NCBI GenBank assembly: GCA_036583965.1
Contig: JAZBQD010000014.1
Location: forward strand, 43,064,990 to 43,128,989
Direction of reading: 5' to 3'
Source of the DNA: Prunella strophiata
Lineage: Eukaryota > Chordata > Aves > Passeriformes > Prunellidae
Length of the DNA stretch: 64,000 nt
Below the pieces are notes generated by a model that searched no databases, had not been told where the DNA came from, and saw only the letters and a list, made by a program, of their open reading frames with translations. The position numbers and the translations under genes are program-made. Positions 5,101 through 62,573 of this stretch are shown here, in pieces; positions within the stretch are counted from its first letter, which is position 1; every line of letters begins with the position of its first letter.

Positions 5101-6704
5101 AATATCACTACTCTCTTTCTCTCTGAACACCTAAACATGAATCACTACACCTCTTAATTCTCCCCATGCAATCAAAGCATGCCCTAAAACACACTGACCC
5201 TCCAATCCCATGTTCTCTACTCTTCCTGAAAGCCAATAGAACCACACTAATTTAAACAGTCTCCTCTAATCAAACCACCTCTGTAGTTTCTCTAGTGTCT
5301 CTCCCATTCTTCAGTGATAACTCCATCTGCCACAGGAATCTGCTGTGGTACAATCCAATTGTGACTCCACTGTTGAAGAGACCTGAGAGGCCTTTGAGTA
5401 CCCAGAAAATGATCAGGATTCTCATGCCTTTTGAATCAATCATTTCCATGCTTTATATACTGCTGCACAAAACAGGGGGCTTTTTTTATGGAAACAAGAA
5501 AAGAGGGACTGAAAAAACCTCACATTACCTAATGTAGAACAACTTGTCTTTTAATCTATCACTGGAGCCCTAAGTCACATATGTAGGATGTACATGAACT
5601 CTCTCAGTTCAGCTTAGTTTATGCTTCATCTCTTCTTTGATAGTGGAATAAAGGTGTGGAAGCCCATGAGAAAAAAGCAAGCTAAAGGCATTCAGAAGTA
5701 CCCATTAATTTTATCACCAATTCAGAAGAAGTTCACATTAATTGTCAACATTAGTCGAGGCACCAATTCTGTGACTTCCTTACTGTAAAGCATATACAAA
5801 TTATTTTTCTCTGTACTTGCTTTTCATGGTCACCATTTCACAGAGAACAGTTTGTCTTGGACAAACCACAGACACATACTGAACATCCTGAAAAAATCCT
5901 TGATTTTTTTTTTCCCTTCTGTCTGTTGTACAGTATATCCCAAATTTGATTTTATTATAAATTGTTAAGACATTGTTAAAATACAATTGCTAAAACTCTT
6001 ACCTATACTAATCTTAAAACCCTAATCTTAAAAAAATAATTAAATTCACTTTTTTATCACTTGGTGTTAAAGAAATGCTTTTTTTGAACAATTAAAATGT
6101 GCAGATGCTTTATTTTGTTCACAAAAATTAGCTGTCATTTTCTGGTTCTCTTTCACTAAGCTGATATTTGGCTTGCACATAGAAGAAAGCCCTTGTAACA
6201 AGTATAATCCAAGTGAAAATTTTATTTTTCTAAGTCCTAAATTAGATACAAAATTAATCAGATAGTTTCACATCAGACTGCCTTCAAATACTGGCATGCA
6301 ACTGGCTTGCTTTCCTCCTCTCATTCCATTGCTCTCTATCACATCCTTCAGTTTATTTTTTCTTCTAATTCTTCTCATTAAACTTATTTATCTTTAGCTG
6401 TTACTCACTGTTTCACAGGATAGCAAGTTGTGATTCTACTTCATAGCAAAGAAGGGCCACCATGCAGAAGCCAATGGCAAAACTCCTACTCACAAAAAAA
6501 AAACTTAAAAAAATCTCCCTGACACATTTGAACTGAAACTCCTCTGGACTGTCAACTGAATACCTGCCATTGCGCATTTGTTAACGTTTTACTTTTCTGG
6601 GTTGAAACACTTGAGTTAGAAAAACTGAATTTTCCCTCTTCTCTCTTTCTCTTGAAAGCAACAAACATATTTCTTTCCTTTTAAAATGTAATTGTGTTTC
6701 TTAC
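2106..6704. other. Non-coding sequence, TMEM117 intron
   Basis: Intronic sequence with short A and T tracts (for example A14 near 2436) and no supported gene. ORFs of 60-105 codons here (for example 3338-3613, 3932-4249) have no signal sequence, domain or splice context I recognise. The stretch just left of 6705 is the donor side of the TMEM117 exon. Confidence 0.5.
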
Positions 6705-6804
6705 CATCCACGCTGTGACAAAATCTCCCATCCAAGTCCCAACTGCAGCTACCTTCATAAAATTTTCATTCCTGATGCCCATGAAGTCTGTTATAATGTA
6801 TGCA
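6705..6804 (-). CDS. TMEM117: TMEM117 internal exon (downstream of the two in the window)
   Basis: A 100-base exon on the minus strand. It completes a split serine codon and then encodes 33 residues, starting AYIITDFMGIRNENF and ending VGTWMGDFVTAWM. This is the conserved block after the loop that follows the third membrane segment of TMEM117, a multi-pass membrane protein of the plasma membrane and ER linked in the literature to ER-stress responses. The acceptor reads TTTTCACAG|TGC and the donor ATG|GTAAGA, both good vertebrate sites. The exon ends in phase 0. It enters with one base, exactly what the phase-2 donor of the exon at 54522-54654 requires, so the two join without a frameshift. 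Human TMEM117 as I recall it has Gly where the junction here gives Ser, and DYMGIRNESF where this has DFMGIRNENF. Identification is very secure. Function is from the family. Confidence 0.95.
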
Positions 6805-8319
6805 CTGTGAAAACAAAAATACAAACATAAGATATACACATTTGCTCAACATAGTTACAAAGAACTTGCATTAGTGACAAAATGTATGATTATGTGTGAA
6901 AGGTTTCCCATTGCTTTCACAATAACTCTTCTGCTAGATCTGAGTCTTGACATAGAACTGAACCCATACAGGTCAATTTCAATTAGAATTGGAACGTGAA
7001 TCTGATTTTGAAGTCCATGTCTCTTTTGAAGGTGCTAAAATAACAGTTGGCAAAGACTTTAGGATTATGTAAAGCTTCTGGAAGTAGAAAGTGTTTTATG
7101 CTTTTTTATCTTTTTCCTTTATACAAATAGAATTACAACATTTTTTAAATCCACGACTTTGCAAAATCTTCATAAAGGAAAATAAAAATCTTTAAGGTAT
7201 CTAAAAAGATAATTGAGCTGCTTGACTTTTCACTCTATCGGTTATACAATCACTTTTTTAACACATCAGTGTAAGGAAGTTTTGTAAAATTTCAGTGAGA
7301 TATCACTGTTTCTATACTTATACAATTTATTTTCACAGATATATTTTACTTAAATCCAAAAGAAGCATTTCCATTCTGCTTAAATAATGCAACAGATAGG
7401 ATTTACAACCTCACTTGGTAATTTGATTTCAAGTTCACCAAGATGCTGTAAGGACAATTAAGAAGGTAAAGTTAATTGTTATGGATTAAAACCTTTCTGA
7501 AAAAAACACACATTTTAATATACTGATATCCTTTTCTAAAATACTTTTGTAGTGGTCAAGAAGAGGTAACTCTACTCAAGAGCTAATAATGACGATAATG
7601 AATATGAATGGCAATTGCATTTTAACTTTATAAGTGATATCTTTGTTTTCAAGACACTTGCAAACATTTTATGTACTGTTATGCCTATTTAGGAGTGTGC
7701 ATGAATGAAAGTTACATGTAGAAGTGTCCTTGAACACTTTGCTATCCATTACTCAAATCTTACCATTGTGACATACCAAATATTGCAATGTCTGGGAGCT
7801 ATACAGACCATATCTCTGCTATTGGATCAGTGCAAACTGATTCCACTCTCTGGGCCCGTTCTGTTAAAATCTAAATATCTGATCAAGATAGAAGGTCTTG
7901 CTAGCACAAATCCATGCATAGCATGGTATAATTTCTCAGAGAGAATTTCATACACTGTAGAGCAGAAATATTATTGTCAGAGAATAGTTTCATGACACAT
8001 GAAAAATTTCCTGGTGTAACAGCCCTTTTCATTATACATAATATGACCTAAAGTCAGCCTAAAGTCTCCCTGCTTCAATGTTCTGTCTCCAAGAGAGGGC
8101 AACAGCAGAAACAAAGGAAGACTGAACACAGGCAAGCACACCTCTCCCAGATATATTCTCCTAGATGCTTTAGAACTGGAAAACATTTGGAATTCCTTTC
8201 TTCCTGCATCTTGGGCATGCCATTCTTGTAGCATCTGTGAAGGCACAAAATAATCAAGTCTGCATCCCTTAAGAAGGTGTCTTATTCACAAAGAAGGCAT
8301 GAAAATAAGTGTCATTTGT
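6805..8319. other. TMEM117: Non-coding sequence, start of 47.7-kb TMEM117 intron (3' end in gene orientation)
   Basis: Polypyrimidine tract and acceptor for the exon at 6705-6804 lie at 6805 to about 6835 on the minus strand. The rest shows no gene or identifiable repeat. Confidence 0.55.
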
Positions 8320-51955: not shown

Positions 51956-54521
51956 AAATTCAAATCCCTACTGCTACATTTTGCTAAGGGATATATTCAC
52001 ACTTTTTTAGGTTTGCTGCACTAAAACACATGTGAAATGTCTTTAAAAAATACTTTTAAGAAAAACCCCAAATTTTGGCAACTGTAAAATGTACCTTTTT
52101 TAAATATGGTTATATGACAGAGCTTTCAATCACAGGTTTCTCAAGCCCTCAAAAGGGCTTTTGCTCTAGTCATCCATGCTGGCATAATGCAGGATGTATG
52201 ACTTTCCTACTTGTGTGCCAGAAAGGGATTTTCATTGATGAGACCAAACATCTGACATAAAGAAGCTTGTCAGAATCCCTCTGGTGCCAGCACCCACGGA
52301 AAGGTGATCCAGAGACATTACAAGGAGAAAACAAAAAAAAGGAAGAAAAAAAGAATGTTTTTCACTAAAGTCTTATAGACAGGAAGGCTTTCATAGCTGT
52401 TGTACTGAACTACATGTATGTAATCTGGGATGCCTGTTTCCTGTGTATGTTTCCTAGGAGCCCACAGGCTCAAAGGTCAGTTTCTCTCCACAAACACCAT
52501 AACCTTCATGCAGGCAAACTCTGACCTTCATCCTGGAAACCAGTCTCTCTGGTGACAATCATTTCAGCAAGGCACTGTGGTAAAAGATATAGACATAGCT
52601 GTTCTTTTGCACAGAAGTGCAAACCATAAAGTGAATAGCTTTCATAAGGATTACATTTACTCAGGAGAAAAAAAATGCACTCCTTGACTCACTTCATTAG
52701 GGCAATATGGAGCAGTTGGCTTTGATGATGTTTGTTGTAGAAACCCTCTTTTCAAAAGTACTACACATTATTCCACCCCAGCTTTGAGAGGACTGATCCA
52801 AGAGCTCTGTTTTACTGATGATTGAAGTCCTGTTGTTTGAGACTGAAACTGTTCCATATGCTTTCTTGCTGGAATGGAGAGCCAACATGTCTGTAATGAG
52901 CCCTCAGCCCACTTTGAAAAAAAGCCATGCAATTCCATGAGCAATTATGGTGAACCTCCCAAAAGAATCACAACACATCTAGAGCTGGGGCATAAGCTCC
53001 AGGAAAGGAGAGGCTTCACCCCACAGAAAGCAAGAGGGACCCCACATGGTCTGGCACAATTATTTTAGTACTAGGCTGTGTCTATTTCCATGGATGTGGA
53101 TGCTGACGGCCACACAATCTCTTCAGTGCAGCTAATGGGAGCTTGTAACAGGGACAGGAAGCAGGAATGTGGACGGACAAATGAAATCTGATTTCCAGAC
53201 ATGAGTCAGGCTTTCAAGATTCTTAATGCCTTGTCTAACAGCTAGCTGGTTTTAGTTTATGGAACATTAGAAAGACCAAATATAAATCTTAACATGATAC
53301 CAATAATAGTATGACTACGTAAATAGGGAAGCCAGAAACCTGCAATGCTCCCTGCCTCCTCATCCTAATTATCCCACCTGTTATTGAGTATTCAGATTTA
53401 CCACATCATTACTGTCATCGTTTCATTAAACAGTCAATGACTCTGCTGCTTTACCTGCCTGCCCCAAACCAATACATTCAGTCTCCATGTCCCAATCTCA
53501 TGATTATTCCAGCTGGTCTGTGCTTATGCTCATTCAGTGACAGGCAGTCTGCCTCCTGCTCACCTTTGGCTTTATGTCACATTGTTTACAGGACTTTGAA
53601 CACTGCACATTTTTGTTGACATGCTTAAGATCTGTAACACACCACACCACAGCCCATTAAATAACTCATCATCAGTCTGTTGGTATGGCTCTGATATTCT
53701 GCTAGGAACAAGGAATTTAATTACTTGCATTGTTCTTCAGTTCATAAATACTTTGGATTTCTTGTTCCTTGCTGGGAAGTCCTTAGATGCTATCTTGCCT
53801 TTCATAAACAACATTGCTTGTGGGTTTTTCTGTCCAATGAACTCATTTTGTACATATTAGATGACTAGACAAATTAGATGACTATATTGTACTAATATAT
53901 AGGTTTTCTCAGGAAAATCAACACTTAAAAATGGTGTTAATTTTGAGATAATAGGAGAAAGCAGGGTTTTAGACAGAAAATTAATATAAACAGGTCCATT
54001 TAAAAGAAATCCATATATAATAGACAGCTATTCATCCCTCAGCCAAACACAATTTTGCTCTCTCAGAGAACCTCATTAGAAAAAAATACGAATATTCTAA
54101 ACAAACTGGATCAATCAGCAAATATTGTTGTACATAACCAAAACAGAACTATACTCCCATTTAATATCCATGAGCTTCCTCAAATTTAGATGTTTCAGTT
54201 ACTTTTAACTCTGAACTTCCTCCCCAGGCACAATAGTAACGCTTAATCTTGTAAACCACTCAGCCCTAACTTCTAATCAAATTTGTTTAGCTATAATTTT
54301 AAACTAAAAAATATATATATATAATGTTCATTACTACCATGATTTTACAGTTGCTAACATTAGTCTAGGACTCAATTTTTTATAACTAATACCTTTATCC
54401 TCTGGGCTAATTAACCAATTAAATTACTATTCTATCTAAATTCAGAAAGGAGGGGAATAAAAAAGTTTACAGTAAAGTATATTCTAGAGCAAAAGAGACA
54501 AAAATAAACTCTGGAACCTAC
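51956..54521. other. TMEM117: Non-coding intronic sequence, 5' end of the large TMEM117 intron
   Basis: Contains the donor of the upstream TMEM117 exon at its right end. A short TA repeat lies near 54308-54322. No other exon seen. Confidence 0.5.
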
Positions 54522-54654
54522 CTCATATTCCCTGCCATAATGAGGAACAGGTTATAAATGTGAGAAAATATGAAGAGGAAGAGGATGGTACTGAAGAACA
54601 TCGTCATCCAAGACCCATGGTCCTCTCGAAACATTTTCAGACGGAGCAATTGAC
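54522..54654 (-). CDS. TMEM117: TMEM117 internal exon (upstream of the two in the window)
   Basis: A 133-base minus-strand exon. It completes a split Gly codon, then encodes 43 residues starting QLLRLKMFREDHGSWMTMFF and including FLFIFSHIYNLFLIMAGNM. This is the conserved cytosolic segment (REDHGSWM) plus a transmembrane helix of TMEM117, close to the human protein as I remember it. The acceptor is TGCCATAG|GT, with a poor pyrimidine tract. The donor is ATGAG|GTAGGT. Entry phase is 1 and exit phase 2, which joins exactly to the exon at 6705-6804 across a 47,717-bp intron. The initiator methionine and first helices must lie on exons to the right of this window. Identification is very secure. 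Confidence 0.96.
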
Positions 54655-57600
54655 CTATGGCATGAAAATTATGAGAAGGCATATTTTAGTCAGTCAGTAA
54701 ATACATGTTTACATCATAATAAAACCAAAATAAATTACTAAACTGTATTTCTTCCTATATCCAATTATTCCGCTGTGTGTGAGGAGGATGTACTTGGCAT
54801 CATGCAGATGAACTACCCTTCTGTAGTTCAGCATGAACAGATATTTTTGCTACAAAATTACAAATTACTTGAAATCCAGAGGGAGGAAAAAAAGAGAATG
54901 CAACAATAACTTATTAACAGCAGTATTTTTAATAGATTATGGGAACAACCATGGGCCATAACAATGCATTTCAAGTGCTAAAAATGGTTACTGATTCATA
55001 CATAATTTTCCTTTTTCATGTCCAAGACAGCTTTTCATATCTAAGACAGTGTGAAGTATTTGAGGTATGTCCACTGATAAATATTATTTGCTTTCCTAAT
55101 TTAATTTGGTAATCAAATTATGAGTCTGTGTAGAATCTTTCACTCTATGTTTTTCTTGGACCTAATCACTTTAATCATATGATATGGTATCATATTTTAT
55201 TCTGCAAAGAATACCTTTTTCCAAAGAATCCTGGTGCGTCTTGCCCCTGGAAAAGAAGCTCTGCTTACTCTCACCACTGGTGTTAAGTGAAACTTTTACC
55301 ATATTTTTGCCCCAAACATATTTTTCCTGGGCTGGCTTTTCTTCTCTGCCATCTCTTACCTTTAGAGAATTGTTTGAGTATTGAAAACCTCACTAGCACA
55401 TGAGACGGGAATTTGCTTTGCAAGGCTGAGTGCCACAGCAGAAGCCAAGAGAGGTTGAAGGAAGACAATGGATAATTCAAGCAGCAAGGTAAAGGACAGC
55501 ACCTAACAAAGAGACAGTGCAGTCTGGTGCTAGAAGATGTGAAAACAGGGAAAACAGAAATAATATGAGGAGCTGGACACTAAGTGTCAAGAGAAGTGAT
55601 ATAGCAGACTGAGATGTGAAATGGTCTGGGATGGAGGCAATTTTTCTCAGTTGGTTGTTGAGCTACCAAGTCCACATTTAGCATTGATTAGGGCTGGACA
55701 CAGAGGGAAGCTATAAAGTGGGAGAAAATAACAAAAAATTTGAAATGCTCACTAAGGTAGACAGGAAGATTCCAGGACTGGTATTTGCTGCTGGAGATGG
55801 AGATGCAGGTTTGGGAGAGGAAGACTTGAGGACCTGGAGCAGACATGGGCTATGGGCTGCAGAGTCAGGATGTGAACTCTGGATTAAGCAACTGGAGGAT
55901 GAGAGTTCTTTGAAAAGCTGAGACTTTGTAATGATGTGGGAACCATGAGGCAGGAGAAGTGACAGGTACGTATAGGGGGGCTGAATGAAGCTCTACAATG
56001 GGACAAGAGCAATACAGGTCTGCAGACCAGCCCAGCTGTACGGCAGCAACAAGGCTTCTGTGAGTGAAGAAAAGTGAAGAAAGGGAAAGTGTAAACACAC
56101 ATACACATGCCCTAAACCCCTGTACTCTTCAACACTTTCACTGCTGGAAACCATGACAGCCCCAGGTCTGGCTAGACTGAGGATGTCCCATAAGCCTGTC
56201 CTTCCCTAAAGAGCAAGCAGAGGCTGCTATGGCAATAGCATATTATCCTGACTTACTGAGAGGAGGGGCTTAATGATAGAAGATATTTCCCTTGCAGTTT
56301 GATACCTGCTCTCTGAACAGCTGCCATTGCATATGGAATGCTACCAAGACCTTGGATAATAAGCAGTACTTGCATAATAGAGTTGTGATTTCAGGAGGTC
56401 CAGATTAATGGAGAGAAAGAACACAGCCTGGAATCTAGACTTCTGTAAAACAGATAACTCCAACTTTTCTAAAACAGGTAAGAGAAAGATTTAATAAATA
56501 TTCATTGCACCTGTACTCTTCAAAGCAATGCTTTTTCCTATTTAGTTATTACACACTGATTAATACCTACTAATATGTATAAATATCATATTCTTAAAAT
56601 AATATTTTCATAAATACTGTCCTCAGTAGGCAAATTCTTCCACTTTAACTTTCCTTCTACTGTAGCTTGTATTTGCCATATACGACTTCATTAACTCTCA
56701 AGCAGGGTTCATCAACATAATTTTTTAATTAACTTAATCACAATACTGATATATAAAAACAAAAGGAATTGGATATTATTAGCACAATTCTTACCTAACT
56801 GCATACAAATGTCACAGATGTTACTTATTGTTCCCACTGTACCAGTAATTGTAACATGCTACATGCAGTTAAACTAAAATATGTTCAATGATCCACGTAA
56901 TGCTCACATTGCTTTATATATCCTTTCACATCAATTCAGTTGAAATAAAAATGGGTGATTAGATGATTGCCTAACAGGTAAGTTGTTAAAGTAAAAATTG
57001 CAAATAATGCTTATTATTTTTATGACAAAACCTAGGACTCTGTATAAAGCTTTGTATTTACAAAATGAGCTAAAATGTTACACTTTGAAAACACACATAA
57101 CAGAAATATTAAGGGGTGTGAATGGTCAGAAATTTGGAAAAACCTATCTGGTAACTGGAATAGATTGCACTAGATTAAAATATAATTCAAAACAGCCCAA
57201 CAATACTCTCAGAGTAATTCCAGAAAAATAAAACAGTTCATGTAAAATTAGGGCTTTTACTATAAAGAATAGCAAGGGGAAAAGAGAGTAGATAAGGAAT
57301 AATAGTACACAAAGCTTTTGACTCAACCTTCTTTTATTTTTGGGTGGGTTTTTTTGTTGGTTTTTTTTTGGTTTTTTTTTGGTTGGTTGGTTCAGTTTGG
57401 TTTTTGGTGTTTTTTTGTTGTTGTTGTTTTGGTTTTTTGTTTTTGTTTGTTTGTTTGTTTGTTTGTTTGTTTTTGTTTTGGTTTTTTGTTGTTTTTGGTT
57501 TTTTTTGTTTTTTAGTTCAGGAAAAATTACTTATTATGAACTTGCTAAAAATGTAAAATAACCCCCAACAGGTATGACAGAGAAGAACATGGTTATTAGG

Positions 57601-60600
57601 ATATATTTACACATAAAAAAATATATACTTAAAAAAACCCAAATAAATGTGTTAAGCCTAGTGGACCTTTGCAAATGCCAGTTAAATGCCATATGAATGC
57701 CTGCCAGTGACAAACTGTGAATTAACTATATACAAAAATCAAGATTCTCCTATCATAATGTTTCCTAGCTCCACCAGAAGTTTCCTCAAAATGTAATTTC
57801 TTACTGGAAACAGGTCTTTTTATCTGCTCCAAGGCTTTGGAGAGCACATCAACAGTACTAGGGGAACACAGAGTAGCAGAGATGTCAGCGTTTAGGGTCC
57901 TGCAACAAACCAGGCAGTAACCAACCAGTATCTTTTTTTTTTCAGTCCAAGAGAAAAGACAACTCAATAGGCAGATACAAAAAATTGAGTCAAACAGGTG
58001 ACTTTTTTTAAAAACTGAAGTTTTTCCAGTATCTTTAGATAAGACAGTTGCACTCATTAAACTGCAGAAGCAGAAACAAGAGAAACAGTAAGTTCTTACC
58101 CATGCATTTAGCATGCTTTCTTGTCTTAATTATGAGGGATGGAAACCATAAACTTCAACCATTTCCTGGGCATATTTGTCATATTCTAATACCAAGCTGT
58201 TCATTGAATCAGATGTATTCCCTTAATTCTGGGTGCACCATCAAAGGATTGCTCTCTCTGCCTACTTAGTGCTCCAGGTCATCTTCATCTATGTCTGAAA
58301 CTGTTCAACTGAAAAATTAACCTCAACAAATGGGAAGTATTTTTTAACCTTGAAAACCAATTCTACTTTCATTAAAGTTTGGCAAGTGTTATTTTAGTCA
58401 GTACTAAAAACATATGCACACTATAATGTCATGGTGCTGTTGCTCATTCCGCCCCAATACAATATGCATATGTGTGTTGGCTGGCTTTGCTTGAGAATAC
58501 ATGGACTTAGCAGTGAATGCTGCAATGTTCAGAAAAATAAAGTTTTCTTAAAGTACAGATGCAAAATTTTGGATCCAAACTGTGAAGACAATCTAGTCAT
58601 ATCCTGTAGCTTGAGTTATTCTGTTGGGGCTAAGACAGTAGACAGAAAACTTGCTATTGTCTGATTTTAAAAAATGTCACTTCTGAAAATTATTACAGCA
58701 CATATCTTCTGGACATCAGGGTAGCTCCAATGGCTTCAGCATAGAGCAGGCCATGCTGCCTGTCCTCCTGCATGCAAACTGCATCCATCATTGTGTAAGG
58801 CTTTAAATTCTTCTGATGGAAGACCAGGAGATCCTGGAATAGCACCAAGCTGGGGGTCAAACTCCTTATGTTTTCCTCTTGCTTATTAAGTTATCTCAGG
58901 ACAGGTTCTTTTTATCTCTGCACCTGTTCCCCTGTGTCCACCCTCTAAGTCACTCACTTCAGTTGCAAAGCACAGCTTCAAGAACCTAATCTTATTTATG
59001 GTCTCTAAGCTCTACTACAATACAAAGAATTAACAGGAGACAGCAAAAATATTTTAGAAAATTCACACAGGAATCCCAAGGTAGACATGTGGGAAATGGC
59101 TACACAGACAGACATATTTTCTAATGACTCTCAGAGCTTCAAATGCACCTTACACAAGCTGGGCAGCTCCATCCCCTTCAGCTACAAAACCAACTTCATA
59201 CAGCTCAGCCCTGAGTGCAGCCCAGCAAACTGAAGGCCATGAAGGACATAAGGGGTTTTGTTTTGTTCAAGTCTGTGACTGTCCTAACACAGTTACAAGG
59301 CTGCACATCCTGACTTTATCTGGCCAACTTGGAGCAAAGCAGAGCAGGTGGCACAGCTGTTTGCCTCCCTCCATTTAGACCTACCTACAGCCCTTGACCA
59401 GAAACTTAATAAGATTGGGAACCTGGCATTAAAATTCCCTTGTGCAGTTATGGCCATACTGTTTGTAGCCAGTTTAGGACTTATTTATACTGCCATTTGT
59501 AAGTCCTGAAAAGAAGGCAGAGAGGTAGGAAATGCCATTTAATTCCAAGAAGACACAAACTCTAGCCGAGAGTATTTTAGGAAAATATAAATTTCTATAC
59601 CTATTCAAACTACTTTTAATTGAAAATATAATGAGAAAATGTTACTTAACTATCTTTCATGTTTTAAAGGATTTACAGGGATATATTTATAAAAATGTGA
59701 GAAGAAAACACACAGTTTGCGTAATTTTTTATATTGACAAAGGCTAAGGAGCAGGGAAGGTATAGCTACCTTAGGTTAAAGTCCAGTGCTTCAATACTTT
59801 AAAAAATACATTTATAGAACAAACACTCCCCACCTGTGAAATACACTGTGAGTAGAACAGATGGTTTTCTATCTACATCATTTCCTGGAAAGTCATTTGA
59901 CTGCCTTTGTTGCTGAGCTTCTAGAGAAACCACTTTCCTTCCTAATTTTGTTAAGTGCAGTCTAAACCAGCTTTTTGTCAGGTAACTGAGTGGACTATAA
60001 ATTTGCAAAGCACAATAATGCAGTCTTTATTTAACAGGTCTTCACTGCAGCTTCTGTTTGTTATAGTTTGACCCCTGTATGTGAACATACCTTTGGAAAA
60101 GTCTTACTGTATTAAGCTTGACATGAAAGCAAAGCATTATGTTAGGAAAAAAACCCACTATTGCCACCTCAATGGTTGAAGATGTTTCAGAATTTTCAAG
60201 GAATAAATAACAGTCTGAAAAGTTCCTTTCTTCCACTCAAAGTGTGGCCTGAACTGATGAAGATTTTATTCTTGCATCCTAGCAAGCACTGTAGTGGACT
60301 CTGATTTATAAATTGCTGTTTGGATGATCTTCATCCAAAGCTTCTACTTGGACAGACCTCACAGTTTGGCATCATTTGGAAATTTTCTAGAAACATAACA
60401 AACTGCAGTTGGTGACAGCTCATTCTAACAGAATATTCCAGCCTTTGGTTTTATTAGAAGCTTAAAAATCATTAGAATTAAGCATAAGACTTAATAAGCA
60501 TTAAAAACTTCCTTTGAAATAATACACAGCAGATCTATATTCCACATATTCCATAATGGGAATTGATACAAAGTAGGCCATAAAGTCAGATGAAAAGAAT

Positions 60601-61008
60601 ATTCTCTAACCCTTCCAAAGCACAATCTTTTAATCCTGGGACAAATATTTACAGAAAATAAAAGAAAAAGGTCAAAAAAAGTACTTTGTCTAGCGCCTTA
60701 GATTGAAAAGTTTCTGTGGCCTTCACTAAAAGCAGAATTTCATCCTCATTTGTTTTGATGCTGTTTTCTTTATCTCAGTCACAGCTCACTGCACAGCTGC
60801 CCACATGAAACTTGCCCCTAGGCCCCATATGGATGCTCAAGGCAATCAAAGCAATGATGGAATGAGCATGGGCAATTACTGTCCTTCTGTCACCTCCTCT
60901 GCTTTTTCCAAAGATAGATTAGTGGCCAAGGGACAATGCTCTCACTTGAGAGTGCGCACTTTTTTTCTCACATCCATTGTATACTACAGTAAATAGCAGA
61001 GAGGAAAT
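54655..61008. other. TMEM117: Non-coding sequence, preceding TMEM117 intron
   Basis: No further TMEM117 exon was found. A purine-rich, slightly GC-richer block at about 55390-56100 has no recognised content. A T/G simple repeat lies at 57331-57513. The receptor-like block and a small ORF follow at the right on the opposite strand. Confidence 0.5.
57331..57513. repeat. T/G-rich simple repeat with (GTTT)n core
   Basis: About 180 bases made almost only of T and G, with a regular GTTT array near 57439-57472 flanked by irregular TTG and GGTT runs. It opens long artificial reading frames of Phe, Val, Cys, Trp, Leu and Gly that are not genes. Likely length-polymorphic. Confidence 0.95.
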
Positions 61009-61010
61009 TA

Positions 61011-61016
61011 TATAAA
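61011..61016 (+). promoter_or_regulatory. TATA-like box upstream of the receptor block
   Basis: TATAAA lies about 260 bases before the receptor's start codon. A possible short first exon ending at AGA|GTAAGC (about 61069-61077) could splice to the acceptor at 61254-61255. Such motifs are common in AT-rich DNA, so this is only suggestive. Confidence 0.2.
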
Positions 61017-61272
61017 GCTTTCCATATAAGTTCATGAAGATCTGCTTGTGTGGGTGTTGTAGAGTAAGCTGTGTTACCTACTTGGAGTTTACATTTCTTT
61101 CAGCTAGAGGAGAGAAGTTGTACATTATTCTATGTTCTGAATTCTTTTGCCAGTTCAAACACACTGAATCTTAACTTACAATTTTTGAATTTTAAGTGCA
61201 GTGTATCCAACTCTATTTTTATTTTAATGGCTGTTGGTCTCTCTTTTCCCTTCAGGTGTACTCCATGGACAG

Positions 61273-62279
61273 ATGATGAATGGTACATGCATTATTTTCA
61301 TTTGCAACAGAAATCCTAAGCTGGAGTGGTACTGTTATTTGCTGATTCTGGTTTGCCTTTTCACTTTATTAACAGGATTTCTAGGCAATATACTTGCACT
61401 ACGACACTATGTTTACTGCATGAAGACATGGACTACCAATACCATATTTTCTCTTTAATTTGGCACTGTGTGACTTTACTTGGACTCTCATGGCACCTTT
61501 TTCAGTGTATCATAATATCCAGAAGTTTGCTGTCTATTTCAGTCAAGCGTTTTATCAGATCATAGGACTATTTTTTAGTATTAATATCTATGGAAGTGTG
61601 TATTTCCTGACACTCATCAGTTTTGACAGATACATAGGTGCTGTTCATCCCATCAGCTCATTAACATGGTGGGACAAAGAAAAGGCTGTGTTTTGCACCA
61701 TTGGGGTATGGATCTTCATAGTGATTGCATCAGGGCCTGAGATTTACTACACAGTTGCAGCCAGAAGACAGCATGACATCATAAATTACCTGGACAGCAC
61801 TGAAGAACCATTACAATTTGCTGTGCCATTCACAGTCTCCAAAATTGTACTGAGACTCCTAATTCCAGCCACAGTCATCTTTACATGCTATATGTTGACT
61901 CTCAAAGCATTACTACAATTCAGTAAACGTCAGCAAAGAAGGAACAGACTTGTTAGGCCTCTGCTACTGATTTCAGCTGCTATGATTGTGTTTGCTGTTT
62001 CTTTCATACCTTACCACGTTATGATGATGGTGATACTAATTTACAGAATTAATTGTCAACCACCCTGTGGGAACATAAGCACATTAAGTGCCATTTACAA
62101 AGTCACAGAGATCATCTGCAGCATCAACAGCTTGCCTTGACCCAATCATTTTTACAATAGCAAATAAGACATTCTATCAAAGAATTAAAAGTATAAAATG
62201 TCATCCCAAATGCCAGTACTGCTGTTGTCTCACAGGAAGGGTAAGGGAAATCACTCTGTCCCTGAGAACAATGACTTAA
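61273..62279 (+). pseudogene. P2Y-type class A GPCR, frameshifted coding block
   Basis: A single-exon, 334-codon receptor (conceptual) with two one-base insertions: an extra T in 61454-61456 and an extra T at 62132/62133. Ignoring them gives a seven-helix class A receptor. It has N-glycosylation site NGT near the N-terminus, TM1 GN (39), TM2 NLALCD (62-67), TM3 ending in DRY (118-120) then VHP, TM6 FIPYHVM (244-250) and TM7 NSCLDPIIF (285-293). The pattern NIYGSVYFLT...DRYIGAVHPI and FAVSFIPYHVM is closest to the P2Y1/P2Y11 purine-receptor branch, with SUCNR1/OXGR1 as relatives. A splice-acceptor-like TTTTCCCTTCAG ends at 61255, 17 bases before the tandem ATGs, as in GPCRs with a non-coding first exon. 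The conserved TM3 and ECL2 cysteines are absent (Tyr94, Asn171), as are the basic TM6/TM7 ligand residues (Met251, Glu279). It lies within a TMEM117 intron on the opposite strand. Pseudogene is the plain reading, but assembly error is possible. Confidence 0.85.
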
Positions 62280-62573
62280 ACACCAGTGCACAAAGACTTG
62301 CATCTCCAGCTGCTCATTTGGCTTCGTGTCATTACACCTATTTCATATTAGGTCTCCCATATTGTACAGATATCTCTCAAATAAGCAAGAATACACAGAA
62401 ATGCAGAGCAAAACTTAACATGACAAGAAATACTAGCAGCTCCTAGCTTTACACAATTGGCATTTTAAACATTGTTGTCATACCCATATCATTGTTGTCA
62501 ATTTTAAACATTGTTGTTGAAATTTATTGTAAAAGAATACTTCTATCTGTACGTACATGCAACATGTAATAAA
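62280..62573 (+). other. Probable 3' UTR of the receptor block with poly(A) signal
   Basis: AT-rich sequence after the stop codon, with AATAAA at 62568-62573 as a plausible cleavage signal. It contains an imperfect 39-bp tandem duplication at 62462-62520 (ATTTTAAACATTGTTGT, twice). There is no transcript evidence, so the UTR assignment is an inference from position. Confidence 0.4.
62462..62520. repeat. Imperfect tandem duplication, 39-bp spacing
   Basis: ATTTTAAACATTGTTGT occurs at 62462 and again at 62501, with a third ATTGTTGTCA between them. Confidence 0.8.

Follow-up and report, generated by a model that had tools for sequence, protein, structure and literature searches.

The window, the whole 64,000-nucleotide stretch of Prunella strophiata DNA analysed here (C49:43064990-43128989), encodes on its plus strand (61256-62279) a predicted class A G-protein-coupled receptor (GPCR) nested within TMEM117, and the avian copies of this receptor lack both cysteines of the TM3-ECL2 disulfide. 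This loss is the most unusual feature of the receptor and was overlooked in an earlier sequence-only reading of the same DNA. The TM3-ECL2 disulfide is treated as near-constant in class A. In this gene, C3.25 occurs in all the non-bird rows and in no bird row examined while the signalling core of the receptor is unchanged, and the two groups thus form a before/after pair for the function of the bridge. The receptor is also an orphan with no mammal among the matches listed, and its database name implies a ligand that its pocket residues oppose.

The class A GPCR block proposed by the sequence-only reading was confirmed at this locus. Its middle frame piece matched Pfam 7tm_1 (PF00001; 4e-35, residues 5-236 of 238), and the best PDB sequence match of the receptor block was P2Y1 (4.5e-31); the two outer frame pieces, searched alone, matched no Pfam family. 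The SFDRY and DPIIF motifs, the AG splice acceptor and the AATAAA signal noticed earlier were all found in the sequence. However, the gene is not the single-exon gene that had been described, as a first coding exon with a GT donor had been overlooked, and the start placed at 61273 is an internal Met and not the start of the gene. The features of the receptor and of the TMEM117 exons in the window are as follows.

56408..56477, plus strand: coding exon 1, MERKNTAWNLDFCKTDNSNFSKT and the first base of a Gly codon, followed by a GT donor at 56478-56479
56478..61255, plus strand: receptor intron of about 4.8 kb, GT...AG, predicted from orthologous proteins
61256..62279, plus strand: coding exon 2 including the stop codon, with N-terminal tail, TM1-TM7, helix 8 and C-tail, in three frames
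61440..61460 (near 61448), plus strand: first frame change, in the TM1/TM2 interval, adjoining pieces being in different frames
61625..61633, plus strand: intact DRY motif within SFDRYIGAVHP, read from the sequence
62125..62135 (near 62130), plus strand: second frame change, in TM7 before CLDPIIF
62568..62573, plus strand: AATAAA poly(A) signal, read from the sequence, about 290 bases 3' of the stop codon
54521..54654, minus strand: TMEM117 coding exon, profile positions about 88-134 (PF15113, 5.4e-15), with AG/GT splice sites and an open frame
6684..6812 (extent of match), minus strand: following TMEM117 exon, profile positions 132-174 (C49:43071673-43071801)

Exon 1 was located by tblastn with the intact Motacilla protein (E 6.7e-15), with which it shares 24/24 residues. 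The intron begins with GT at 56478 and ends with AG at 61254-61255, and its phase agrees with the 363-aa orthologues. From these data we infer a gene of two coding exons flanking the predicted 4.8 kb intron. When the window is read across its three frames, the class A core (D2.50, (D/E)R3.50Y, P6.50 and (N/D)P7.50xxY/F) is present. Among the matches listed, the nearest named proteins were those of Anomalospiza and Vidua (97%). In one Anomalospiza entry (P0001, isoform X2), exon 1 is spliced to a site within TM1, skipping part of the N-terminus and of TM1, which is possibly a prediction artefact.

A profile match over the whole genome (1.05 Gb, 838 contigs) gave seven exon matches for TMEM117, all on the minus strand of C49. 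One of them, covering profile positions 1-128, lies 14 kb beyond the window (C49:43142948-43143325) and overruns its exon, and the match around the exon inside the window (profile positions 88-135) extends over 54518-54661. With minus-strand exon matches on either side, the receptor lies antisense within a TMEM117 intron of about 23 kb, in agreement with the nesting proposed from the sequence.

Only one match of high identity to the receptor was found in the genome, and the next best was 34% identical. Two trees containing P2RY1 and SUCNR1 were built, as the sequence-only reading had proposed, one with 39 rows (17 nested genes) and one with 42 rows (15 nested genes). In both, the nested genes formed a clade of their own (100/100) apart from P2RY1, P2RY2/4 and SUCNR1. 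The nearest group was SUCNR1 (95/89 and 89/78), a join that may be false given the long stems, and the nested clade lies outside the SUCNR1 clade, of which it would be a sister at most. In the second tree, four loci of this genome (L002, L003, L021 and L020) fell with P2RY1, P2RY2, P2RY4 and SUCNR1, respectively; L004 adjoined P2RY1, and L006, which we take to be P2RY6, adjoined P2RY2/4. The names of these loci are not taken from an annotation. Two identities considered for the nested receptor were rejected: canonical P2RY1 is found elsewhere in the genome (L002, C204), where it groups with the P2RY1 of other vertebrates, and SUCNR1 is likewise represented here by a different gene, L020.

The nested clade includes ray-finned fish, amphibians, squamates, turtles and birds. 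No mammal, no crocodilian-labelled row and no coelacanth was named among the matches listed (best 120 of 191; best 120 of 226). The lineage is separate from P2RY1, P2RY2/4 and SUCNR1 and, with its range from ray-finned fish to birds, old. In a further tree of 78 rows, the 45 bird rows that were entered, emu and tinamou among them, formed one clade at 100 on a stem of 0.27, and the sauropsid rows formed one starred group (98, 63 rows). P0082, which carries no label, lies near the turtles. The sequence-only reading had suggested an undescribed or lost lineage of the P2Y/SUCNR-like group. Its separateness and its position near P2Y1 and SUCNR1 were borne out and many sauropsid orthologues are present, but the lineage is not undescribed, as many orthologues carry the automatic annotation 'P2Y purinoceptor 1-like'. 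The word is also at odds with the clade list of Rinne et al. 2019 (PMC6504862), which holds candidate clades without human orthologue in matching species.

The ligand pocket does not fit the database name. Ballesteros-Weinstein positions were assigned from motifs, and the relatives compared were the best 120 of 895 matches, comprising P2RY1, SUCNR1, P2RY2, P2RY4, unlabelled rows and PDB constructs. These relatives carry Arg at 3.29 (120/120), Lys or Arg at 6.55 (120/120) and Arg at 7.39 (119/120), residues that hold the phosphate or carboxylate ligands of P2Y1 and SUCNR1. Among nested rows with a letter at 6.55, a basic residue is found in 0/132 non-birds and 2/86 birds, a hydrophobic residue standing there instead. 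Position 7.39 is Glu in 124/131 non-birds and 76/84 birds, with Lys in 3 and 5 rows, respectively, and position 3.29 is Lys or Arg in 124/132 non-birds and 53/86 birds. Therefore, two of the three anion-holding residues are replaced in nearly all rows. The window has Gly at 3.29, Met at 6.55 and Glu at 7.39, and the basic triad of P2Y receptors is absent. The Gly at 3.29 (residue 127, window 61565-61567) is shared with Vidua and Anomalospiza and occurs in 17/86 bird rows.

It could be argued that the receptor is a P2Y1-type nucleotide receptor, as it is called in the databases. P2Y1 leads both the PDB sequence matches and the fold matches, and the basic residue at 3.29 is still kept in most non-bird rows. 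However, the true P2RY1 of this genome lies at another locus and the nested clade stands apart from it with full support, and the replacements at 6.55 and 7.39 contrast with the nearly invariant basic residues of the best 120 of 895 relatives. We consider a P2Y1-type receptor very unlikely.

The cysteines were compared in an alignment of 220 proteins, each representing a 90% cluster, together with the window. Birds (n = 89) comprised 76 named rows, the window and a further 12 rows that carry no label and were assigned by similarity; the four of these entered in the tree fell among birds. Non-birds (n = 132) comprised 86 rows with a taxon name and 46 without. C3.25 is present in 132/132 non-birds and in 0/86 birds (three gaps), which have Tyr (76), Phe (7), His (2) or Asn (1) in its place. 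C45.50 is present in 128/131 non-birds (one gap) and in 0/87 birds (two gaps). The pattern is the same in named rows only, with C3.25 in 86/86 non-birds versus 0/74 birds and C45.50 in 82/85 non-birds versus 0/74 birds. In the window, both positions are Tyr, and the cysteines of the TM3-ECL2 disulfide are thus absent. By eye, the alignment of turtle and bird sequences is ungapped near both sites. A cysteine of any kind in ECL2 was found in only 2/89 bird rows. Both cysteines are kept outside the clade, by the best 120 of 895 relatives (C3.25 119/119, C45.50 120/120) and by every one of 27 further class A receptors inspected in this genome (of 75 other matches). As no crocodilian-labelled row was listed, the loss is dated to the avian stem or to an earlier point in archosaur history. 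At C45.50, the three non-bird exceptions are P0199, with Trp, and the geckos P0083 (Heteronotia) and P0088 (Sphaerodactylus), with Gly and Lys. These geckos, which keep C3.25, are half-way to the bird state.

Birds carry instead a pair of cysteines in ECL3. At window residues 290 and 294, Cys is found in 82/87 and 79/85 birds versus 1/132 and 0/130 non-birds. Counted anywhere within residues 288-298, there are two cysteines in 80 of the 89 bird rows, three in one, one in four and none in four, and one cysteine in 4/132 non-birds. A Cys is aligned at residue 294 in 120/120 relatives (best 120 of 895), and it therefore looks to have been lost by the non-bird nested genes and regained by birds. 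The second ECL3 cysteine is missing in turkey and three unlabelled turkey-like rows. In turkey P0075 and in P0078 and P0079, which lack it, a Cys stands one place before the first. Single losses of the N-terminal and ECL3 cysteines occur in a few birds, with no co-variation between them.

The signalling core and the helices of the avian receptor are strongly conserved. Its core residues are kept in nearly all bird rows (D2.50 84/85, D3.49 86/86, R3.50 85/86, P5.50 86/87, P6.50 86/87, P7.50 85/86), and over the 89 bird rows the mean entropy falls from 1.1-1.4 for the extracellular loops and the N-terminus to 0.38-0.63 for the helices and 0.29 for ICL2. We compared divergence among 68 birds (of 76 named, eight short rows being dropped), 13 squamates and 29 chosen teleosts. 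The ratio of ECL2 to TM divergence was 2.95 in birds, 1.77 in squamates and 1.12 in teleosts. The corresponding ratios in birds and squamates were 2.64 and 2.24 for ECL1, 2.08 and 1.39 for ECL3, and 2.27 and 1.78 for the N-terminus. As these regions also diverge faster in birds, freer evolution fits a freed ECL2 and is not special to ECL2. The predicted flamingo model has a mean pLDDT of 69.8 (moderate confidence), with ECL2 below 50 at residues 196-209, and the tortoise model has a pLDDT of 77.8 with values below 50 at the two ends only; the two models come from differing alignments, and the contrast between them is therefore weak. In a Foldseek search with the flamingo model, P2Y1, SUCNR1 and P2Y2 led the matches and OXGR1 ranked 13.

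The window copy itself is interrupted. With the Motacilla protein, tblastn read exon 2 as pieces in three frames (61252-61449, 61448-62131 and 62130-62276), where the sequence-only reading had taken the block as one open frame and overlooked both changes. Owing to these two frame changes, no uninterrupted reading frame over both exons was found in the assembly. As controls, 27 receptor loci were examined from among the 75 other matches in the genome (7 and 20 from two listings). Of these, 22/27 were matched in a single frame over most of the profile, 4/27 (L005, L021, L023 and L032) were matched in two frames, and for L031 only part of the profile was matched. The frame changes of the four broken controls suggest assembly indel errors or real losses, and an appreciable proportion of genes in the assembly is thus broken or carries frame errors. 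An initial argument that the control frames were open and the window breaks therefore real was dropped after the break in L005 was found and then 4/27 controls proved broken.

At this rate, the window copy may reflect either recent loss or assembly error. We give an even chance to the explanation that both breaks are assembly errors and the receptor gene is intact in P. strophiata. Breaks are found at other receptor loci of the same assembly, including the one that groups with P2RY4 (L021), and amino-acid changes have not accumulated in excess in the window protein, whose end branch is 0.011 versus 0.013 in Anomalospiza and 0.017 in Vidua. On the other hand, contig C182, and not C49, accounts for three of the four broken controls, and at four breaks per 27 genes the probability of two in one gene is about 0.01 (hand calculation, Poisson). 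A broader form of loss would be a decay of the gene in birds from their stem onwards, the cysteine loss reflecting relaxed constraint and the window copy its end point. Besides the two frame breaks, two other bird entries, P0077 (Morus bassanus) and P0101 (Leptosomus), are marked LOW QUALITY PROTEIN, which hints that the gene is broken in other birds as well; broken copies are under-represented in protein databases, and every extracellular part has a higher ratio of divergence to that of the helices in birds than it has in squamates. Such decay is nevertheless unlikely in view of the conserved core motifs, ICL2 and helices described above. Moreover, 12 named bird rows from several orders have exactly 363 residues, and the gain of ECL3 cysteines that are then mostly kept is not predicted by decay. 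Hidden paralogy, in which the bird copy would differ from the copy kept by reptiles and fish, might be read from the long avian stem (0.27). We regard it as highly improbable, as this genome has a single copy, the sauropsid rows fall in one starred group, and the avian cysteine pattern occurs in no row of the 132 non-birds.

The reading that we prefer, and consider likely from the sequence comparisons, is that of a separate old GPCR lineage with a non-nucleotide ligand whose extracellular lid is held anew in birds by N-terminal and ECL3 cysteines. The nested receptor would still work as a G-protein-coupled receptor at the cell surface, and its ligand would be other than a nucleotide or succinate. 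In birds, the N-terminal and ECL3 cysteines would replace the TM3-ECL2 bridge in a melanocortin-like manner, and such an arrangement may result in a more open ligand entrance. More tentatively, at somewhat below an even chance, the TM3-ECL2 disulfide was swapped on the avian stem for a melanocortin-type N-terminus/ECL3 cysteine scaffold, by which the entrance was opened and the ligand or the basal activity changed. If true, this would be a datable rebuild of class A extracellular architecture inside one orthologous gene.

Among receptors with a solved structure, P2RY1 comes nearest in both sequence and fold, at about 30% identity when the folds are aligned, and shares IP(F/Y)HVM in TM6 and DPxx(Y/F) in TM7. 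It differs in belonging to another clade and in having a basic 6.55 and R7.39, the former missing from the nested clade and the latter from most of it. It also has HRY where the nested receptor has DRY, and it differs from the nested bird copies, which are without the TM3-ECL2 cysteines. SUCNR1, the nearest group in the two trees by a join that is unsure given the long branches, shares the DRY motif; however, neither the basic residues nor the two cysteines are lost in SUCNR1, whose bird orthologue is L020. Melanocortin receptors, MrgD and CB1 belong to other class A branches. According to one report, the C3.25-C45.50 bridge occurs in >90% of class A receptors and is thus typical but not universal, MrgD, CB1 and melanocortin receptors being without both cysteines and the pocket of MrgD being solvent-exposed (PMC9287403). 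MC4R is described as having no TM3-ECL2 bridge, with one bridge in ECL3 and another between the N-terminus and ECL3 (PMC8563958). On this description, MC4R is the closest parallel to the bird receptor, the TM3-ECL2 bridge being missing in both. Unlike in MC4R, MrgD and CB1, the loss in the nested receptor is confined to the bird rows of one orthologous gene.

Open-licence literature, as judged by titles and abstract openings of the matches listed, gave no recognisable study of the TMEM117-nested locus or of the avian cysteine loss. The receptor is thus known from databases, and its nesting and the avian disulfide loss appear in none of these matches. The survey of Rinne et al. 2019 gives 142 clades without human orthologue (PMC6504862). 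Two of them, NPSR1L (placed near P2RY1) and GPR205A, have gar, other fish, coelacanth, amphibian and sauropsid members in its list, a range that fits the nested clade except for the coelacanth (among our matches listed). In the list these are names without analysis of locus, residues or disulfides, and we liken them to the nested clade by range and position; the clade is probably already in the 2019 list, possibly as NPSR1L or GPR205A. A search for NPSR1L, P2RY16, GPR204 and GPR205 as whole words found no other open-licence paper. A possible lead on expression comes from one report (PMC5420122), in which LOC100550971, a turkey gene annotated as P2Y purinoceptor 1-like, is given as up-regulated at 33 °C in the muscle satellite cells of one turkey line; this gene may be the nested receptor in turkey.
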